46,298 nucleotides of DNA from Actinomycetes bacterium (GTDB lineage Bacteria; Actinomycetota; Thermoleophilia; Gaiellales; Gaiellaceae). The position numbers and the translations under genes were made by a program. Numbering within the stretch: the stretch's first letter is position 1; each line of letters opens with the position of its first letter. Under the pieces are notes generated by a model. That model made no database searches and was not told the origin of the DNA. It saw only the letters and a list, made by a program, of their open reading frames with translations. Positions 36,083-42,490 of the stretch are shown here, one piece after another. The DNA is taken from the NCBI GenBank assembly GCA_025964395.1, contig JAOPYY010000058.1, positions 1 through 46,298 on the forward strand, written 5' to 3'.

Positions 36083-37201
36083 ATGACCAAGGCTGCCCTC
36101 GACGGCATCGTTGTTGTCGACTTCTCACGCGTCCTCGCCGGGCCGCTCGTCGGGATGACACTCGGCGACCTGGGCGCGGACGTGATCAAGGTCGAGGCGC
36201 CCGGCGGTGACGACACGCGCCGGTGGCAGCCGCCGACTGATGCGCAGGGCCGCGCGTCGTACCACCACGTCGCGAATCGCAACAAGCGGTCGATCGTGCT
36301 CGACCTCAACGTCGAACCGGACCTCGAGCTCGCACGGCAGTTGTGCGAGCGCGCCGACGTCGTCGTCTCGAACTTCAAGCCGGGAACGCTCGAACGCTTC
36401 GGGCTGGACTACGAGCGCATCGCAGCCGCGAACCCGCAGGTCGTCTACTGCGAGATCAGCGGCTTCGGCGAGCGGGGTGGACGCGACCTGCCGGGCTACG
36501 ACCCGCTCGTGCAGGCGGTCGGCGGCCTGATGAGCATCACCGGCCCGCCCGGTGTGCCCTCCAAGGCCGGTGTCGCGATCGTCGACGTCGTCACCGCGCT
36601 CTACGCGACGGTCGCGGTGCTCGCCGCGCTCTACGCGCGGCGCGACCTCGGCAAGGGGCAGCGCATCACGATCGACCTGCTGCACGCGAACCTCGCGATG
36701 CTGGCGAACCAGTCCACGGGCTGGCTCGCGAGCGGCCGCGTGCCGCAGGCGCTCGGGAACGTCCATCCGAGTATCGAGCCGTTCGCGACGTACCGGGCCG
36801 GGGACGGCGACCTGATGATCGGCGCGGGGAACGACGCGCAGTTCGCGCGCCTCGTCACTGCGCTCGGCGTTCCGGAGCTCGCGACCGATGCAGGCTTCAG
36901 CACGAACGAGCAGCGCGTCGCGAATCGTGACGAGCTGCGCGGCGCGCTCGAAGCGAGGCTCCAGACGCGCACGCGCGGGGAATGGCGCGACGTGCTGCTC
37001 GAGGCGGGCGTGCCCGCAGGCCCCGTGCAGACGATCGACGAAGCCTTCTCACTCGCCGAGGCGCTCGGGCTCGACGCGGTCGACGAGACGGACGGCGTGC
37101 GCACCGTCAGCTTCCCGGCTCACCTGTCGGAGACGCCGGCGAACGTTCGCCGGCGGCCGCCCGACCTGGACGAGCACGGTGACGAACTCAGGCGCGTTTG
37201 A
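36083..37201 (+). CDS. Class III (CaiB/BaiF) CoA-transferase
   Basis: A 372-aa family III CoA-transferase, moving CoA between carboxylic acids. Landmarks: VVDFSRVLAGPLVGMTLGDLGADVIKVEAPGGDDTR (N-terminal CoA-binding block), NRNKRSIVLDL, YCEISGFGERGGRDLPGYDPLVQAVGGLMSITG, and SKAGVAIVDVVTALYATV, in which the Asp of IVD is the catalytic nucleophile. ANQSTGWLASGRVP and PAGPVQTIDEAF are also typical. Length is normal (about 400). The substrate (carnitine, succinate, formyl, bile acid or other) is not inferable. The 3' end overlaps the convergent OsmC gene by 14 bp. Confidence 0.9.
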   Translation: MTKAALDGIVVVDFSRVLAGPLVGMTLGDLGADVIKVEAPGGDDTRRWQPPTDAQGRASYHHVANRNKRSIVLDLNVEPDLELARQLCERADVVVSNFKPGTLERFGLDYERIAAANPQVVYCEISGFGERGGRDLPGYDPLVQAVGGLMSITGPPGVPSKAGVAIVDVVTALYATVAVLAALYARRDLGKGQRITIDLLHANLAMLANQSTGWLASGRVPQALGNVHPSIEPFATYRAGDGDLMIGAGNDAQFARLVTALGVPELATDAGFSTNEQRVANRDELRGALEARLQTRTRGEWRDVLLEAGVPAGPVQTIDEAFSLAEALGLDAVDETDGVRTVSFPAHLSETPANVRRRPPDLDEHGDELRRV

Positions 37202-37628
37202 CGGTCACGGTGGCGCCGGCCCGTCGGAGCAGCGACGAGAACGGGCAACCCTCGTCGGCGCGCTCGATCGCGGCCGCGAGTGCTTCCTCCGACGTGCCTT
37301 CGACCTCCACGTGCACGGTGATCTCCGCGCCGACGATCTGGTGACCCTGGTCGGGAACCTCGTCCATCACGATTAGGCAGTGGATCTCCATCCGGGTGGG
37401 AGGCGTCTTGTCGCGTGCGAGCTCGCTGCCGAGCGACGTCGTGAAGCAGCCGGCGGTCGCGGCGGCAAGCAGCTCCTCCGGGCTCGTCTTGCCCTCCGGG
37501 TCGCCCAACCGCGACGCGAGGGTGTAGGGCAGCCCGCTGAAGGCGCCCGTGTCGCCGGTGATCGTTCCCGCGCCGCGGGAGACGCTGCCTTCCCACTCGA
37601 CCTTCGCACTGCGTTCGATTCTCGGCAC
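37188..37628 (-). CDS. OsmC/Ohr-family peroxiredoxin-like protein
   Basis: A 146-aa protein of the OsmC group: EWEGSVSRGAGTITGDTG and RLGDPEGKTSPEELLAAATAGCFTTSLGSEL with the first redox Cys, then ERADEGCPFSSLLRRAG with the second. These two Cys reduce organic hydroperoxides in characterised OsmC/Ohr enzymes. GTG 37628 is chosen because AAGGAG stands 8 nt upstream; a TTG two codons earlier would overlap the cupin stop (TTGA) but is too close to that site. It is co-transcribed with the cupin gene. Confidence 0.9.
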   Translation of the reverse strand: MPRIERSAKVEWEGSVSRGAGTITGDTGAFSGLPYTLASRLGDPEGKTSPEELLAAATAGCFTTSLGSELARDKTPPTRMEIHCLIVMDEVPDQGHQIVGAEITVHVEVEGTSEEALAAAIERADEGCPFSSLLRRAGATVTVKRA

Positions 37629-37630
37629 GC

Positions 37631-38296
37631 TCAATTCTCCTTGTCGGTCGGCAGCACGGCGAGCGTGCCGTCGGGGTAATAGGCCTCGGCTGGCGAGCCC
37701 GCCGGCCGGAAGACGCCGAGGAGCCGCAGCTCCGAGTCGCCGGTGTTCGCGAGGCAGTGCACCAGCTTCGCGGGAAGGTGGACGCACGACCCCGCGTGGA
37801 GCGGCGCCTGCTCGCCGTCGATCTCGAGGAAGCCCTCGCCTTCGAGGACGTAGATCACCTCGTCGTAGGTGTGGAAATGGTCCGGAGCGCGCCCGGGGGG
37901 CACCAGCCCGACGAACTGGGTGACCGATGCGCAGCCGACCTCGGGGGTCGCGCCGAGCAGGAACGCGCGGCCGGCGGTCGCCGTGCCGGACTCGACGTCG
38001 TTCAGGTCGAGAACGGCGTGCCCGGTCGATGGCTCCGGGTCGTGGATCAGGACCGAAACGGCACGCGCGTCGCCGTCGGCCGACCAGGGCGTGCCGCGCG
38101 AGACGAAGACCGAGACGCCCTCGCGCACCCCATGCGTCTCGCCGCCGACGGTCACCCGGGCCGCGCCCTCGAGCACGTAGACGACCTCGTCGGCTGCCGC
38201 CTCGTGGTGGTCTCCGGCCAGCGGGCCGACGCGTTGCGTGAACGGCTCGGTCTCGAAGAACGTCCCATCGGCGCGTGCATCCATGGCGTATTTCAT
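37631..38296 (-). CDS. Two-domain cupin protein
   Basis: A 221-aa bicupin. Each half has one cupin barrel: the first with DHHEAAADEVVYVLEGAARVTVGGE, the second with PDHFHTYDEVIYVLEGEGFLEIDGE followed by VHLPAKLVHCLANTG. His and Glu residues of the metal-binding cupin motif 1 are intact in both. Family members include dioxygenases, isomerases and sensors; no specific reaction can be assigned. ATG 38296 is 19 bp from the divergent SnoaL-like ATG, and both share a symmetric -10 element. The OsmC gene follows after 2 bp. Confidence 0.85.
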   Translation of the reverse strand: MKYAMDARADGTFFETEPFTQRVGPLAGDHHEAAADEVVYVLEGAARVTVGGETHGVREGVSVFVSRGTPWSADGDARAVSVLIHDPEPSTGHAVLDLNDVESGTATAGRAFLLGATPEVGCASVTQFVGLVPPGRAPDHFHTYDEVIYVLEGEGFLEIDGEQAPLHAGSCVHLPAKLVHCLANTGDSELRLLGVFRPAGSPAEAYYPDGTLAVLPTDKEN

Positions 38297-38303
38297 CGCT
38301 ACG

Positions 38304-38310
38304 TAACCTA
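38304..38310. promoter_or_regulatory. Symmetric -10 element TAACCTA shared by two divergent genes
   Basis: On the plus strand TAACCT (38304-38309) is followed by exactly 6 nt and the ATG of the SnoaL-like gene. On the minus strand TAGGTT (38310-38305) is followed by 8 nt and the ATG of the cupin gene. Both satisfy TANNNT, so one 7-bp box could serve both directions. The start codons leave only 19 bp between them, so leaders are absent or 1-2 nt and each -35 region lies in the opposite gene. Confidence 0.5.
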
Positions 38311-38315
38311 CGCGC

Positions 38316-38708
38316 ATGAGCAACGTCGAGATCGTCAAGCGCTCCTACGAGGCGTTCGCCCGCGATGACCTGGAAGGCGTCATGGGCGACATGGACCCGG
38401 AAATCGTGTGGCACCAGGCCCAGGGACTGCCGCACGGCGGCACCTATCGCGGGCTCGATGAGGTGAAGCGGAACATCTTCGACCCTCTCGACGAGGAATG
38501 GTGGAACGAGTTCACCGCCGACCCGGACGAGTTCCTCGACGCGGGCCAGAACGTGGTCGTGATCGGCCGCTATCGGGGCACTGCGAAAGAAACCGGCAAA
38601 CAACTGGACGTTCCGTTCGTCCATATCTGGACTCTGGAGGGCGACAAGGCAGTCCAGTTCCGCCAGTACCTCGATACCGCAGGGTGGGTGGGCGCTCTCC
38701 AGGGCTGA
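38316..38708 (+). CDS. SnoaL-like (NTF2-fold) protein
   Basis: A 130-aa protein with the SnoaL/NTF2-like cone fold: start VEIVKRSYEAFARDDLEGVMGDMDPEIVWH, then GGTYRGLDEVKRNIFDPL, DEFLDAGQNVVVIGRYRGTAKETGKQLDVPFVHIWTLEGDKAVQFRQYLDTAGW. The family includes polyketide cyclases, epoxide hydrolases and many uncharacterised stress-related proteins; the reaction is unknown. It is divergent from the cupin-OsmC pair. Leaderless promoter spacing (6 nt) and no Shine-Dalgarno site. Confidence 0.85.
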   Translation: MSNVEIVKRSYEAFARDDLEGVMGDMDPEIVWHQAQGLPHGGTYRGLDEVKRNIFDPLDEEWWNEFTADPDEFLDAGQNVVVIGRYRGTAKETGKQLDVPFVHIWTLEGDKAVQFRQYLDTAGWVGALQG

Positions 38709-38722
38709 ACGAGATTTGATCA

Positions 38723-38751
38723 TTGACACTGGCCCCGGCAGTGGTGAGACT
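38723..38751 (+). promoter_or_regulatory. Probable promoter of the Liv-type transporter operon
   Basis: A perfect TTGACA (38723-38728), a 17-bp spacer and GAGACT (38746-38751) as a weak -10 box. It lies about 50 bp before the binding-protein ATG, giving a normal leader with AAGGAGG. This is the only consensus -35 hexamer noted in the window. Confidence 0.45.
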
Positions 38752-38799
38752 CGGCAATCCCCCGGAAGCGACAAGTGTTCCCATGCAAGGAGGAACCAC

Positions 38800-39978
38800 A
38801 TGAAGAAGGCGATCGGTCTCGCCCTCGCGGTACTCGCCACGTCCGTCGTGGCTGCGAGCGCGCAGGGTAGTAACAGGATCGCAGCGGTCTCGGCCGCAGG
38901 CGTGAACTGCAAGAGCACGATCACGCTCCCCCTCGTCACCCCGGTGACCGGCGGTGCCGGCTTCCTCGGCGCCGAGCAGGGCTCGTGGTCCAAGTACGCG
39001 GTCAAGACGCTCGCGAAGCCGCTCGGACTGAAGGTCAAGTTCGTGCTCGGCGACACACCGGTCGAGCAGGGCCCGGCTCCGGCACAGGCTCTGGCTCAGA
39101 AGTACGTTGCGGACAAGAGCGTCCTCGTGGTGCTCGGCCCGTCCACGTCCGGCGCCGTCGCGGCGTCGAGCTCGACGTACTACGCGGCGAAGATCGCGCA
39201 CATCTCCCCGTCGGCTACCCGCACGTCGCTGACCCAGGGATCCTCGAAGGAAGCGACTCCGGCGTTCTTCCGGGTCGTCCCCGGTGACTACATCCAGGGC
39301 CCTTCGGACGCGAACTTCATGATCAAGACGCTGAAGGTCAAGAAGGTCGTCCTCCTCGACTTCCAGGAGCCGTATTCGACCGGCCTCTCGGACTCGGTCG
39401 AGGGAGTGCTGAAGAAGGCCGGCGTTTCGACGACCCGTCTCTCGGCGCCGAACACGACGACCGACTACTCGGCATACGTGACCAAGGTGCCGAGCGATGC
39501 CGACATCGTGTTCTTCCCGACGCAGAAGCCGGGCGACGCTCAGACGTTCGCCCAGCAGCTCGTCGAGCAGGGCAAGAAGGCGAAGGTGTTCGGCGGTGAC
39601 GGCTCGAACGACCCGTCCGCGTTCAAGGCGGGCGGCTCGTACGTGTCGAACTTCGCCCCGGACATCACGGGCATCAAGGCCGACGCGGCGATCGTCGCCG
39701 GTTGGAAGAAGGAGAACCCCGGCAAGGCCGTGGGCTCCTTCGGCCCGCCGAGCTACGGCGCAACGCAGGTCGCGCTCAATGCGATCGCTCTCGCGTGCAA
39801 GGCCGGCCACGGCACGACGACCCGCCAGGCCGTGCTCAGCAGCATCAAGAAGGTGAAGATCAAGAACTGGATCCTCGGTGGGGATCTCCGTTGGTCGACC
39901 AAGTCCAACGACCCGCTGAACGCGAAGTTCTACATCTTCCAGATTCAGTCGAACGGCGCGTACAAGCTCGTCGGCTAA
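38800..39978 (+). CDS. livJ: Branched-chain amino acid-type ABC transporter substrate-binding protein
   Basis: A 392-aa periplasmic-binding protein of the LivJ/amide group. Signal peptide KKAIGLALAVLATSVVAASAQ with a likely cut after ASA; no lipobox. The mature part opens STITLPLVTPVTGGAGFLGAEQG, and the ligand-site segments VLVVLGPSTSGAVAASSSTYYA and HISPSATRTSLT are in place; PSYGATQVALNAIALAC lies near the end. Binding proteins of this fold take branched-chain amino acids, urea, amides or aromatic acids, so the substrate is open. The ATG at 38800 has AAGGAGG upstream. It has a strong hairpin between its stop and the permease gene, which usually keeps the binding protein in excess. Confidence 0.9.
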   Translation: MKKAIGLALAVLATSVVAASAQGSNRIAAVSAAGVNCKSTITLPLVTPVTGGAGFLGAEQGSWSKYAVKTLAKPLGLKVKFVLGDTPVEQGPAPAQALAQKYVADKSVLVVLGPSTSGAVAASSSTYYAAKIAHISPSATRTSLTQGSSKEATPAFFRVVPGDYIQGPSDANFMIKTLKVKKVVLLDFQEPYSTGLSDSVEGVLKKAGVSTTRLSAPNTTTDYSAYVTKVPSDADIVFFPTQKPGDAQTFAQQLVEQGKKAKVFGGDGSNDPSAFKAGGSYVSNFAPDITGIKADAAIVAGWKKENPGKAVGSFGPPSYGATQVALNAIALACKAGHGTTTRQAVLSSIKKVKIKNWILGGDLRWSTKSNDPLNAKFYIFQIQSNGAYKLVG

Positions 39979-39997
39979 CGACGAAGAGATCGACCTT

Positions 39998-40029
39998 CGA
40001 GGGCGGCTCGGCTGACCGAGCCGCCCTCG
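39998..40029 (+). terminator. Strong hairpin between livJ and livH (attenuator-like)
   Basis: CGAGGGCGGCTCGG and CCGAGCCGCCCTCG form a perfect 14-bp stem with a CTGA loop. It is followed by ATCTCTATAAAAA rather than a U-run, so read-through is expected: partial termination or protection of the livJ mRNA 3' end. TATAAA (40035-40040), 8 nt before the livH GTG, with CTGACC 17 bp further up in the loop, could be a second promoter. Confidence 0.55.
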
Positions 40030-40048
40030 ATCTCTATAAAAACCCCCT

Positions 40049-40972
40049 GTGGACACGTTCCTCCAGCTCACCGTCGATGCCCTGACGCTCGGCAGCGTCT
40101 ACGCGCTGATCGCGCTCGGGTACACGCTCGTCTACGGCGTGCTGAAGCTGCTGAACTTTGCACACGGCGACGTCTTCATGGTCGGCTCGTTCATCGGGTT
40201 CGGCGTTCTGCAGTTGCTCGGCGGCACCTCGAAGCCCGTCGTGCCGGTTTGGCTGCTGCTCGTCCTGATGGTCCTCGCCGCGATGGTCGGCTGCGCGGTG
40301 CTCGGCGTCGTGATCGAGCGCTTCGCGTACAGGCCGCTCCGAGACGCGCCGCGCATCGCACCGCTGATCAGCGCTCTCGGGGTCTCGTTCTTCCTCGCGA
40401 ACTCGATGCAGCTGCTCTTTGGCGCGACGCCACGCAACTACAACATCTTCGATCTCGCAAACGCCTCGCTCTACACCAAGGGCTTCAACGTCGGGAACGT
40501 CCACGTGGCGCTGCTTCGGATCATCACCGTGGTGGCGGCCTTCGTGTTGATGGTGCTGCTCTGGTTCCTCGTCAACCGGACGCGCACGGGCAAGGCGATG
40601 CGCGCGACGTCATACGACCGCGAGGCCGCGGCGATGATGGGGATCGACATCGACAAGGTGATCGTCTTCACGTTCGTGCTCGGCTCGGCCCTTGCGGGAG
40701 CGGGGGGCGTCCTCCAATCACTCAGGGTGCCGACGACGGTCGCGATCGGCTTCGTCGTCGGCCTCAAGGGCTTCACGGCGGCGGTGATCGGCGGCATCGG
40801 CTCGATCCCGGGCGCGATGGCGGGCGGGCTGATCCTCGGGTTCGCCGAGTCGTTCTCCCAGGGCTACATCTCGACCAAGTGGTCCGATCTGATCGTCTTC
40901 TCGATCCTCATCGCCTTCATGATCTTCCGGCCGCAGGGCCTCCTCGGCCGCGCCGACATCAGGAAGGTGTGA
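40049..40972 (+). CDS. livH: Branched-chain amino acid-type ABC permease (LivH)
   Basis: A 307-aa membrane protein with eight or so helices. The LivH family start LTVDALTLGSVYALIALGYTLVYGVLKLLNFAHGDVFM is exact in style, as is the conserved EAA-like loop TGKAMRATSYDREAAAMMGID. The C-terminus GLILGFAESFSQGYISTKWSDLIVFSILIAFMIFRPQGLLG completes the pattern. It pairs with LivM to form the channel. The GTG at 40049 has no good Shine-Dalgarno site; a TATAAA box 8 nt upstream may allow a near-leaderless message besides read-through from livJ. It is separated by 45 bp from livM. Confidence 0.92.
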   Translation: MDTFLQLTVDALTLGSVYALIALGYTLVYGVLKLLNFAHGDVFMVGSFIGFGVLQLLGGTSKPVVPVWLLLVLMVLAAMVGCAVLGVVIERFAYRPLRDAPRIAPLISALGVSFFLANSMQLLFGATPRNYNIFDLANASLYTKGFNVGNVHVALLRIITVVAAFVLMVLLWFLVNRTRTGKAMRATSYDREAAAMMGIDIDKVIVFTFVLGSALAGAGGVLQSLRVPTTVAIGFVVGLKGFTAAVIGGIGSIPGAMAGGLILGFAESFSQGYISTKWSDLIVFSILIAFMIFRPQGLLGRADIRKV

Positions 40973-41017
40973 GCATGGGTTTGAAGGTACAGCCTTGATG
41001 GAGCGGAGGAGCGCGGT

Positions 41018-42490
41018 ATGAGCGACTCGACGCCACACGGTTCGCACGTCCCCGCCGAAGGGCCGGCGGTCGGGCAGGACGAGTGGGTCGCGCGCCACGC
41101 CGAGCAGCGGTTCATGCCGGGCGGCCCGCTCGGGGCGCTCGAGGACCGCATCCGCCGCGTCCCGTGGTGGGCCTGGCTGATCCTGTTCCTCGCCGCGGCG
41201 TCGACGCTGCCGGTGTTCGAGCACAGCGGCTACGTGCGGTACGTCGCGTTCAGCACGGTGCTCTACATGCTGCTGGCGCTCGGCCTGAACGTCGTCGTCG
41301 GCTGGGGCGGGCTGCTCGATCTCGGGTACGTCGCGTTCTACGGGATCGGTGCGTACGCCTACGCGATGCTCGACTCCGACAAGTTCGGCATCCACCTTCC
41401 GACGATCGTGTCGGTGCCGCTGGTCGTCGCGATCGGGGCGATCGGCGGCTTCCTGCTCGGCCTACCGTCGAGGCGCTTGACCGGCGACTACCTCGCGATC
41501 GTGACGCTGTTCTTCCTGCAGTTGTTCCAGACGATCACGACGAACGGCGACGCGGCGTTCGGACACAACCTGACGGGCGGCCCCAACGGGATCCTCAACG
41601 TCGACCCGTTCCATCTCGGGAAGCACGACCTCGTCGTGCAGCACGAGGGCATCTTCGCCGTCTCGTACTTCTACGTCGCCCTCGCGGTCTTCGCCGTCGT
41701 CTTCGTCGCACTTCGGTTCGTCAACCAGTCGCGGACCGGGCGCGCTTGGCGATCGCAGCGCGAGGACCCGCTCGCGGCGGAGGCAATGGGCATGCCGGTC
41801 AACTGGCTGAAGCTGTTGAGCTTCTCGTTCGGTGCGGCCGTCGCCGCGCTCACCGGCACGCTGTTTGCCGCACAGTCGGCGAGCGTCTTCCCGCTCACCT
41901 TCTACTTCGTGCTCTTGATCATCGTCTACACGATGGTCATCCTCGGCGGCTCGGGCAGTCAGGCAGGCGTTGTCGCCGGCGCGGTGATCGTCAGCCCGCT
42001 GCTCGAGCTGCTGCGCGACCCGGGGAAGTCGCGCGTGATCTTCTTCCTCGCGCTCGTCGGCGGCCTGCTGCTGATGTCGCGCCGCTCGCGTGCGCTCGGG
42101 ATCGTCGCGATCGTCACGCTCGCGTTCGGCTTCGCCGTGCACGAAATCCTGGGCGCGATCGACAAGTCATGGATTGCCGGCGAGCATCAGGGCGGCTTCG
42201 CAGGCGTTACCGATCACTGGGTCGTCGCGCCGGCGCACATGGCGCGCTGGATCGCGCCCACGTCGTACATCGGGCTGATCGCCGCCGTGCTGCTCGTGAC
42301 GATGGTGCGCGGACGGCTGCGGCTCGCCCTGCTCGTGCCGACGGTCTACCTCACGGCGTTCGTGTGGGAGAACGTGATGCTCGCGAAGCCCGAGCCGGCT
42401 CGGTACATCGTGCTCGGCGTGATCCTGATCGCGCTGATGATCCTGCGTCCGAACGGCCTGCTCGGCGAGCGCAGGGTGGAGATCGTCTAA
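41018..42490 (+). CDS. livM: Branched-chain amino acid-type ABC permease (LivM), long form
   Basis: A 490-aa membrane protein, longer than most LivM (320-420). The conserved core includes LNVVVGWGGLLDLGYVAFYGIGAYAYAML, PSRRLTGDYLAIVTLFFLQL, and SRTGRAWRSQREDPLAAEAMGM. An N-terminal soluble stretch of about 45 residues (STPHGSHVPAEGPAVGQ) and a C-terminal block of extra helices interrupted by a soluble loop (SWIAGEHQGGFAGVTDH) account for the length. Start: ATG 41018 with GGAGGAG upstream. The TAA overlaps the livG ATG (TAATG). It forms the second half of the membrane channel. Confidence 0.9.
   Translation: MSDSTPHGSHVPAEGPAVGQDEWVARHAEQRFMPGGPLGALEDRIRRVPWWAWLILFLAAASTLPVFEHSGYVRYVAFSTVLYMLLALGLNVVVGWGGLLDLGYVAFYGIGAYAYAMLDSDKFGIHLPTIVSVPLVVAIGAIGGFLLGLPSRRLTGDYLAIVTLFFLQLFQTITTNGDAAFGHNLTGGPNGILNVDPFHLGKHDLVVQHEGIFAVSYFYVALAVFAVVFVALRFVNQSRTGRAWRSQREDPLAAEAMGMPVNWLKLLSFSFGAAVAALTGTLFAAQSASVFPLTFYFVLLIIVYTMVILGGSGSQAGVVAGAVIVSPLLELLRDPGKSRVIFFLALVGGLLLMSRRSRALGIVAIVTLAFGFAVHEILGAIDKSWIAGEHQGGFAGVTDHWVVAPAHMARWIAPTSYIGLIAAVLLVTMVRGRLRLALLVPTVYLTAFVWENVMLAKPEPARYIVLGVILIALMILRPNGLLGERRVEIV

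Follow-up and report, generated by a model that had tools for sequence, protein, structure and literature searches.

Bidirectional bacterial promoters with a symmetric -10 element are said to have been described by Warman et al. 2021. In the excerpts of two further papers that we drew on, one such element is read on both strands, with -7T and -11A reciprocally paired (PMC12825309, PMC10268837), and at E. coli bidirectional promoters the commonest separation of transcription start sites is 18 bp, 10 and 23 bp being also common, and opposing polymerases exclude each other, with no simultaneous binding (PMC12825309). Leaderless genes of Actinobacteria carry TANNNT about 12 bp upstream, according to the passages used of PMC3160421, PMC3898074 and PMC4633059; those of M. 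tuberculosis do so without a conserved -35 element (PMC3898074), and in mycobacteria leaderless translation begins at ATG or GTG only (PMC4633059). Closely juxtaposed divergent promoters of two leaderless genes occur at prpD/Rv1129c of M. tuberculosis (PMC3898074, in the section cited), a likeness to the locus reported here, where both genes are predicted to be leaderless; however, the starts listed for that pair, 1254630 and 1254510, are 120 bp apart, and therefore it has no common box. The symmetric -10 principle and leaderless genes are already known, and what seems new is the combination of both with one box. The quoted passages of the three papers on actinobacterial leaderless genes do not mention one box serving two of them, and among open-access papers we recognised no description of a pair of leaderless genes served by a single symmetric box, a prior account remaining conceivable. 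Divergent prokaryotic gene pairs are spaced by 273 bp on average with a mode of 135 bp (PMC2784483, in the part consulted), so that gaps of about 20 bp are unusual.

The locus lies in a stretch of 46,298 nucleotides (the window), which is one entire contig of a draft genome. A first-pass annotation of this DNA had named a SnoaL-like gene, a cupin gene and an OsmC-like gene, identities with which Pfam agreed, and the features are:

37188-37628, minus strand: OsmC-like gene downstream of the cupin gene, likely start GTG 37628 as read from the sequence (Pfam E 1.8e-15)
37631-38296, minus strand: bicupin gene, 221 aa, with Cupin_2 found in two stretches (Pfam E 3.4e-28), its message predicted to have no leader or one of 1-2 nt
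38297-38315, no strand: entire intergenic region, 19 bp, read from the sequence and of equal length in the genomes G071 and G079
38302-38312, no strand: palindrome CGTA-ACC-TACG, 11 bp, with the box at its centre, kept in three genomes
38304-38310, no strand: putative symmetric -10 box TAACCTA, invariant in 3/3 same-genus genomes with the pair, among them the window's own
38304-38309, plus strand: TAACCT, predicted -10 hexamer for the SnoaL-like gene, with 6 nt to the ATG
38305-38310, minus strand: TAGGTT, predicted -10 hexamer for the cupin-OsmC unit, with 8 nt to the ATG
38316-38708, plus strand: SnoaL-like (SnoaL_2) gene, 130 aa, predicted leaderless (Pfam E 1.2e-14)

The divergent start codons of the bicupin and SnoaL-like genes (38296 minus and 38316 plus, 20 bp apart) enclose the gap CGCTACGTAACCTACGCGC. 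The first-pass annotation had proposed that TAACCTA reads as TANNNT on both strands, 6 and 8 nt from the two ATGs, and that 19 bp make up the whole region between the genes; its coordinates agree exactly with ours, the minus-strand reading of the box is TAGGTTA, and the length was confirmed from the sequence. The full geometry, CAT-N7-TANNNTA-N5-ATG, has one match in the window. A SnoaL-like start further upstream is impossible because the box itself supplies an in-frame stop, TAA (T*PTRM). The bicupin frame is open upstream of its ATG as far as a TTG at 38338, but the alignment of the bicupin orthologues begins at the proposed ATG (MKYAM, MQYAM, MRYAM and MRWCV); the alternative starts TTG 38338 and ATG 38317 were rejected, the latter being not conserved in L008. 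Read by eye, the gap has no Shine-Dalgarno-like purine tract near either ATG, and a weak TAGG on the minus strand, about 10 nt from the bicupin ATG, falls within the box itself. A consensus scan of 37900-38820 found no promoter of the TTGACA/TATAAT type; the same interval holds one terminator-like site, close to the shuffle mean of 0.6, and Rfam gave no match at gathering score anywhere in the window. TTGACG at 38338-38333 was considered as a -35 element of the minus-strand box and rejected, as it is 22 bp from the box, which is too far, and differs in relatives. Like the symmetric -10 promoters described above, the gap has one -10 element that fits the consensus on both strands, and the link to that promoter type drawn by the first-pass annotation is supported by the excerpts of PMC12825309 and PMC10268837. 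It differs from them in that the predicted starts lie at or beside the start codons and that box and spacers are the entire intergenic region.

Spacings between TANNNT and start codons were counted in 846 kb, composed of 400, 200 and 200 kb of three relatives plus the window. At 6, 7, 8 and 9 nt before ATG the counts were 33, 38, 27 and 29 (other spacings 0-12), and before GTG 56, 35, 34 and 28 (other spacings 5-21); TTG gave no peak in this sample, with 3-10 throughout. When a coding ORF was required, 73, 64, 47 and 45 cases were obtained at 6-9 nt versus 2-18 elsewhere, and no conserved -35 element was seen upstream of these boxes. TANNNT 6-9 nt before ATG or GTG, but not TTG, is by this sequence evidence the signature of putatively leaderless genes in the lineage, which resemble the actinobacterial leaderless genes of the excerpts cited above in the TANNNT, in having no conserved -35 and in using ATG or GTG and not TTG. 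Both spacings of the window, 6 and 8 nt, are within the 6-9 nt peak, and the prediction that both messages are leaderless or nearly so is well supported; the 8-nt spacing allows a leader of 1-2 nt on the minus side. Offsets between boxes in this sample peaked at -1 (TANNNTA, five counts from four sites) and at +4 (ANNNTANNNT, seven counts), with 0-3 at other offsets and, in four shifted-spacing controls, 0-1 at -1 and 0-2 at +4, both offsets being also cheaper by chance owing to shared letters. With 6-nt spacing the two starts would lie 18 bp apart at the first offset and 23 bp apart at the second, both distances being common in E. coli (PMC12825309, in the portion used). Among the predicted leaderless boxes of the sample, those followed by A had a mirrored coding divergent start in 8/15 cases (gene sides, that is four pairs, the window's included), versus 7/211 of those not followed by A.

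A search of 103 family genomes gave a SnoaL match in 28, mostly distant, and the four named relatives of the window's SnoaL gene are labelled Thermoleophilia (three) and Actinomycetota (one). The cupin/SnoaL pair is found in 3/13 same-genus genomes (G000, G071 and G079, the window's own among them), and in all three the gap is 19 bp and TAACCTA invariant, 14 of the 19 columns being identical and 11 of these contiguous; third codon positions of the two genes are the same in all three genomes in 44% of columns. The conservation of box and gap is thereby borne out within the genus, in 3/3 genomes holding it, and the claim that the two genes have their -10 element in common holds by sequence. A pair in the more distant G084 has a 26-bp gap with two back-to-back boxes, TACATT-6-GTG and TAGAGT-6-ATG; these are separate, and sharing is therefore not obligatory.

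Each gene was also followed apart from its partner. Upstream regions were read at 11 SnoaL loci, of which L016 (36% identity) and L034 (a broken fragment) were left out of the counts; at loci with at least 59% identity and an intact start, TANNNT stands 6-7 nt before the start in 8/9 (window included). This holds for four of the five SnoaL genes without a cupin partner (L007, L011, L012 and L013, before ATG or GTG), L014 having no such box. Among the cupin loci, where the N-terminus was in several cases extrapolated and a locus could have more than one candidate start codon, TANNNT precedes a candidate start by 6-9 nt in 11/12 (window included; L201 is without it), and it is near the start in 8/9 of those without a SnoaL partner. 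The cupin box is followed by A at the three shared pairs and at L193 (G077, where no SnoaL turned up upstream), and by G or C at the remaining seven loci. Each gene alone thus usually has a predicted box of its own, and where the two stand head to head in this genus the boxes appear to be merged. At L007 and L011 another divergent gene, methyltransferase-like on reading, lies beside SnoaL and has its own TANNNT 6 nt from ATG or GTG; the partner differs there, yet both sides look leaderless.

The layout was then sought across the 103 family genomes as CAY-N5-8-TANNNTA-N5-8-RTG. This pattern gave 1220 matches and is present in 103/103 genomes; controls with one side shifted to 12-15 nt gave 253 (forward) and 273 (reverse), and with both sides shifted 91, the variable gaps letting one site count repeatedly, equally in test and controls. 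The half-shift expectation is 435, which leaves an excess of 785, or 7.6 per genome, with 99 genomes above expectation and 1 below (Wilcoxon p 5e-18, which overstates independence, since the genomes are related). We quote 435 because the both-sides-shifted control is too lenient, the real count being inflated by single leaderless genes; a backwards-pattern control (591 matches) was judged poor, as TA and AT frequencies differ. Boxes placed back to back without overlap, counted at a single fixed offset, gave 94 matches. When the first match per genome was taken from G001-G030, 16/30 loci had convincing coding ORFs at both start codons; coding on both sides was unconfirmed in the other 14/30, and a lone pattern match is therefore not proof. 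In the window's own genome there are 16 sites, and 10 of the 15 loci read have convincing coding ORFs on both sides. Pfam identified five other members of these pairs, namely UPF0047, Abhydrolase_2, thymidylate kinase, a CAF17/GCV_T-type protein and a formiminotransferase, the UPF0047 partner giving only a weak M3 peptidase match below the cut-off; further partners were recognised from sequence and are presumably a glutamyl-tRNA synthetase and an epimerase. The predicted shared-box layout is, on this count, a class with several sites per genome in the family, which goes beyond the single case of the first-pass annotation and differs from E. coli-type symmetric -10 promoters in recurring at several gene pairs per genome. 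Outside the family, chosen groups of a 246-genome phylum sample were compared with their forward/reverse half-shift controls: 137 vs 93/88 in 19 genomes of the same order or class, 47 vs 12/12 in the 11 of these with low background, 117 vs 53/36 in family f8 (16 genomes), 33 vs 21/23 in f25 (7 genomes) and 1390 vs 1454/1449 in f11 (19 genomes, with many chance matches). Among the groups summed, some lineages outside the family have a weak excess or none, or one that is masked.

Pairs were also collected by protein similarity. UPF0047 orthologues are found in 100/103 family genomes, and the best locus was examined in 87 of the 100 (30 + 40 + 17; L121-L190 and L233-L249), 13 with partial, edge or weaker matches being left out. 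An M3-like peptidase homologue lies divergently upstream in 69 (56/70 and 13/17), and TANNNTA is kept in 68 of these 69 pairs (55 and 13, L170 being the exception); the query came from a genome in which the pattern had found the box, which biases the choice of pair and not the box state of the others, and the loci are related by descent. Loci without the M3-like partner have TANNNTA in 0/18, three having TANNNT minus the final A; at two loci with no divergent partner, L233 and L237, the box reads TAGGATG. The box is TAGGATA, with the central triplet GGA, in 65/68; it stands 6-10 nt from the UPF0047 start, and an ATG or GTG follows at 6-10 nt on the partner side in 66/68, the exceptions being L159 and L174. 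The first 55 of these boxes show a sharply bounded conserved block, CNTAGGATA, with no -35 element and no palindromic extension, and their triplet is conserved at 96-100% per position, though TANNNT usually leaves it free. The conserved triplet may set the balance of directions; direction-setting and contact with a regulator are both possible for GGA.

For thymidylate kinase/epimerase, a partner is present in 25/30 loci; a shared box at most 10 nt from the kinase start with ATG or GTG opposite was found in 13/25 pairs, several of the remaining pairs show longer spacings or a second, separate box, and the loci without a partner have TANNNTA in 0/5. At L211, L219, L228 and L232 two well separated inverted boxes, CATCCTACG ... 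CGTAGGAT, replace the shared one, and these are possibly split or fusion intermediates, like G084 for the window pair.

The geometry, the leaderless signature, the conservation and the recurrence of the class are all read from sequence, and we consider it probable (about 0.82) that TAACCTA is a bidirectional sigma-70-type promoter with both starts at or beside the start codons. The housekeeping RNA polymerase would read TANNNT either way, as TAACCT on the plus and TAGGTT on the minus strand, with no -35 element needed. Rightward transcription would begin at the A of the SnoaL ATG (38316) and leftward transcription at 38296, the A of the cupin ATG, or 1-2 nt earlier; if it began at 38298, the two starts would be 18 bp apart, the canonical distance for bidirectional promoters. 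Both mRNAs would be translated leaderless or nearly so. The box would hold one polymerase at a time, and the two units would draw on one initiation site and may be co-regulated.

The palindrome CGTAACCTACG might instead be mainly an operator for a dimeric regulator of both genes, with promoters elsewhere. It is a perfect 11-bp palindrome conserved in three genomes and could be a regulator site, but at least one such palindrome arises in 14/100 shuffles, about one window in seven, so that by itself it is unremarkable; moreover, partner-less orthologues keep TANNNT at leaderless spacing without it, the 55 UPF0047-pair boxes conserve their block without palindromic extension, and no sigma-70-like two-hexamer promoter was found in 37900-38820. 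We regard a mainly operator role as unlikely. It is quite improbable that the box serves one gene, the other being transcribed from inside the opposite gene with a longer leader: the minus frame is indeed open upstream and 8 nt is not the commonest spacing, but this value is within the lineage-wide peak, TANNNT is near a candidate start at nearly all cupin loci (11/12), the upstream interval has no consensus promoter, and neither ATG has a nearby Shine-Dalgarno-like purine tract, unlike the gene at 38800. That AT-rich letters merely happen to lie between two starts of a GC-rich genome is hardly credible, since, although 435 of the 1220 pattern matches are expected by chance, the box is invariant in the genus, its geometry arose in 0/100 dinucleotide shuffles, 785 matches exceed the half-shift controls, and 68/69 UPF0047/M3-like pairs collected by protein similarity keep the box.

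If TAACCTA is a bidirectional promoter of two leaderless genes, a symmetric -10 element combined with leaderless mRNAs would make a divergent promoter that could hardly be more compact, its outer limits being set by the start codons. Tentatively, zero-leader bidirectional promoters could be a distinct selected architecture in this family. The 7-bp symmetric box would then be the core of all the DNA between two leaderless genes and would be retained because it makes units such as UPF0047/M3-like take turns at a common initiation event, with the central triplet tuning the balance of directions; any such regulatory benefit is conjectural, and the shared box may merely be what a short gap can accommodate at least cost. 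Since the layout is found repeatedly and one pair conserves it strongly, it offers a natural set for testing two-gene polymerase competition by single base changes. It also aids the placement of start codons in genes without Shine-Dalgarno sites. In the window, the gene 3′ of SnoaL, which encodes a Peripla_BP_6 binding protein (domain by Pfam), begins at ATG 38800 behind a strong Shine-Dalgarno sequence, AAGGAGGA, in contrast to the predicted leaderless pair next door, and the interval 38800-42490 also has two long membrane-protein-like ORFs, permease-like on reading the sequence.
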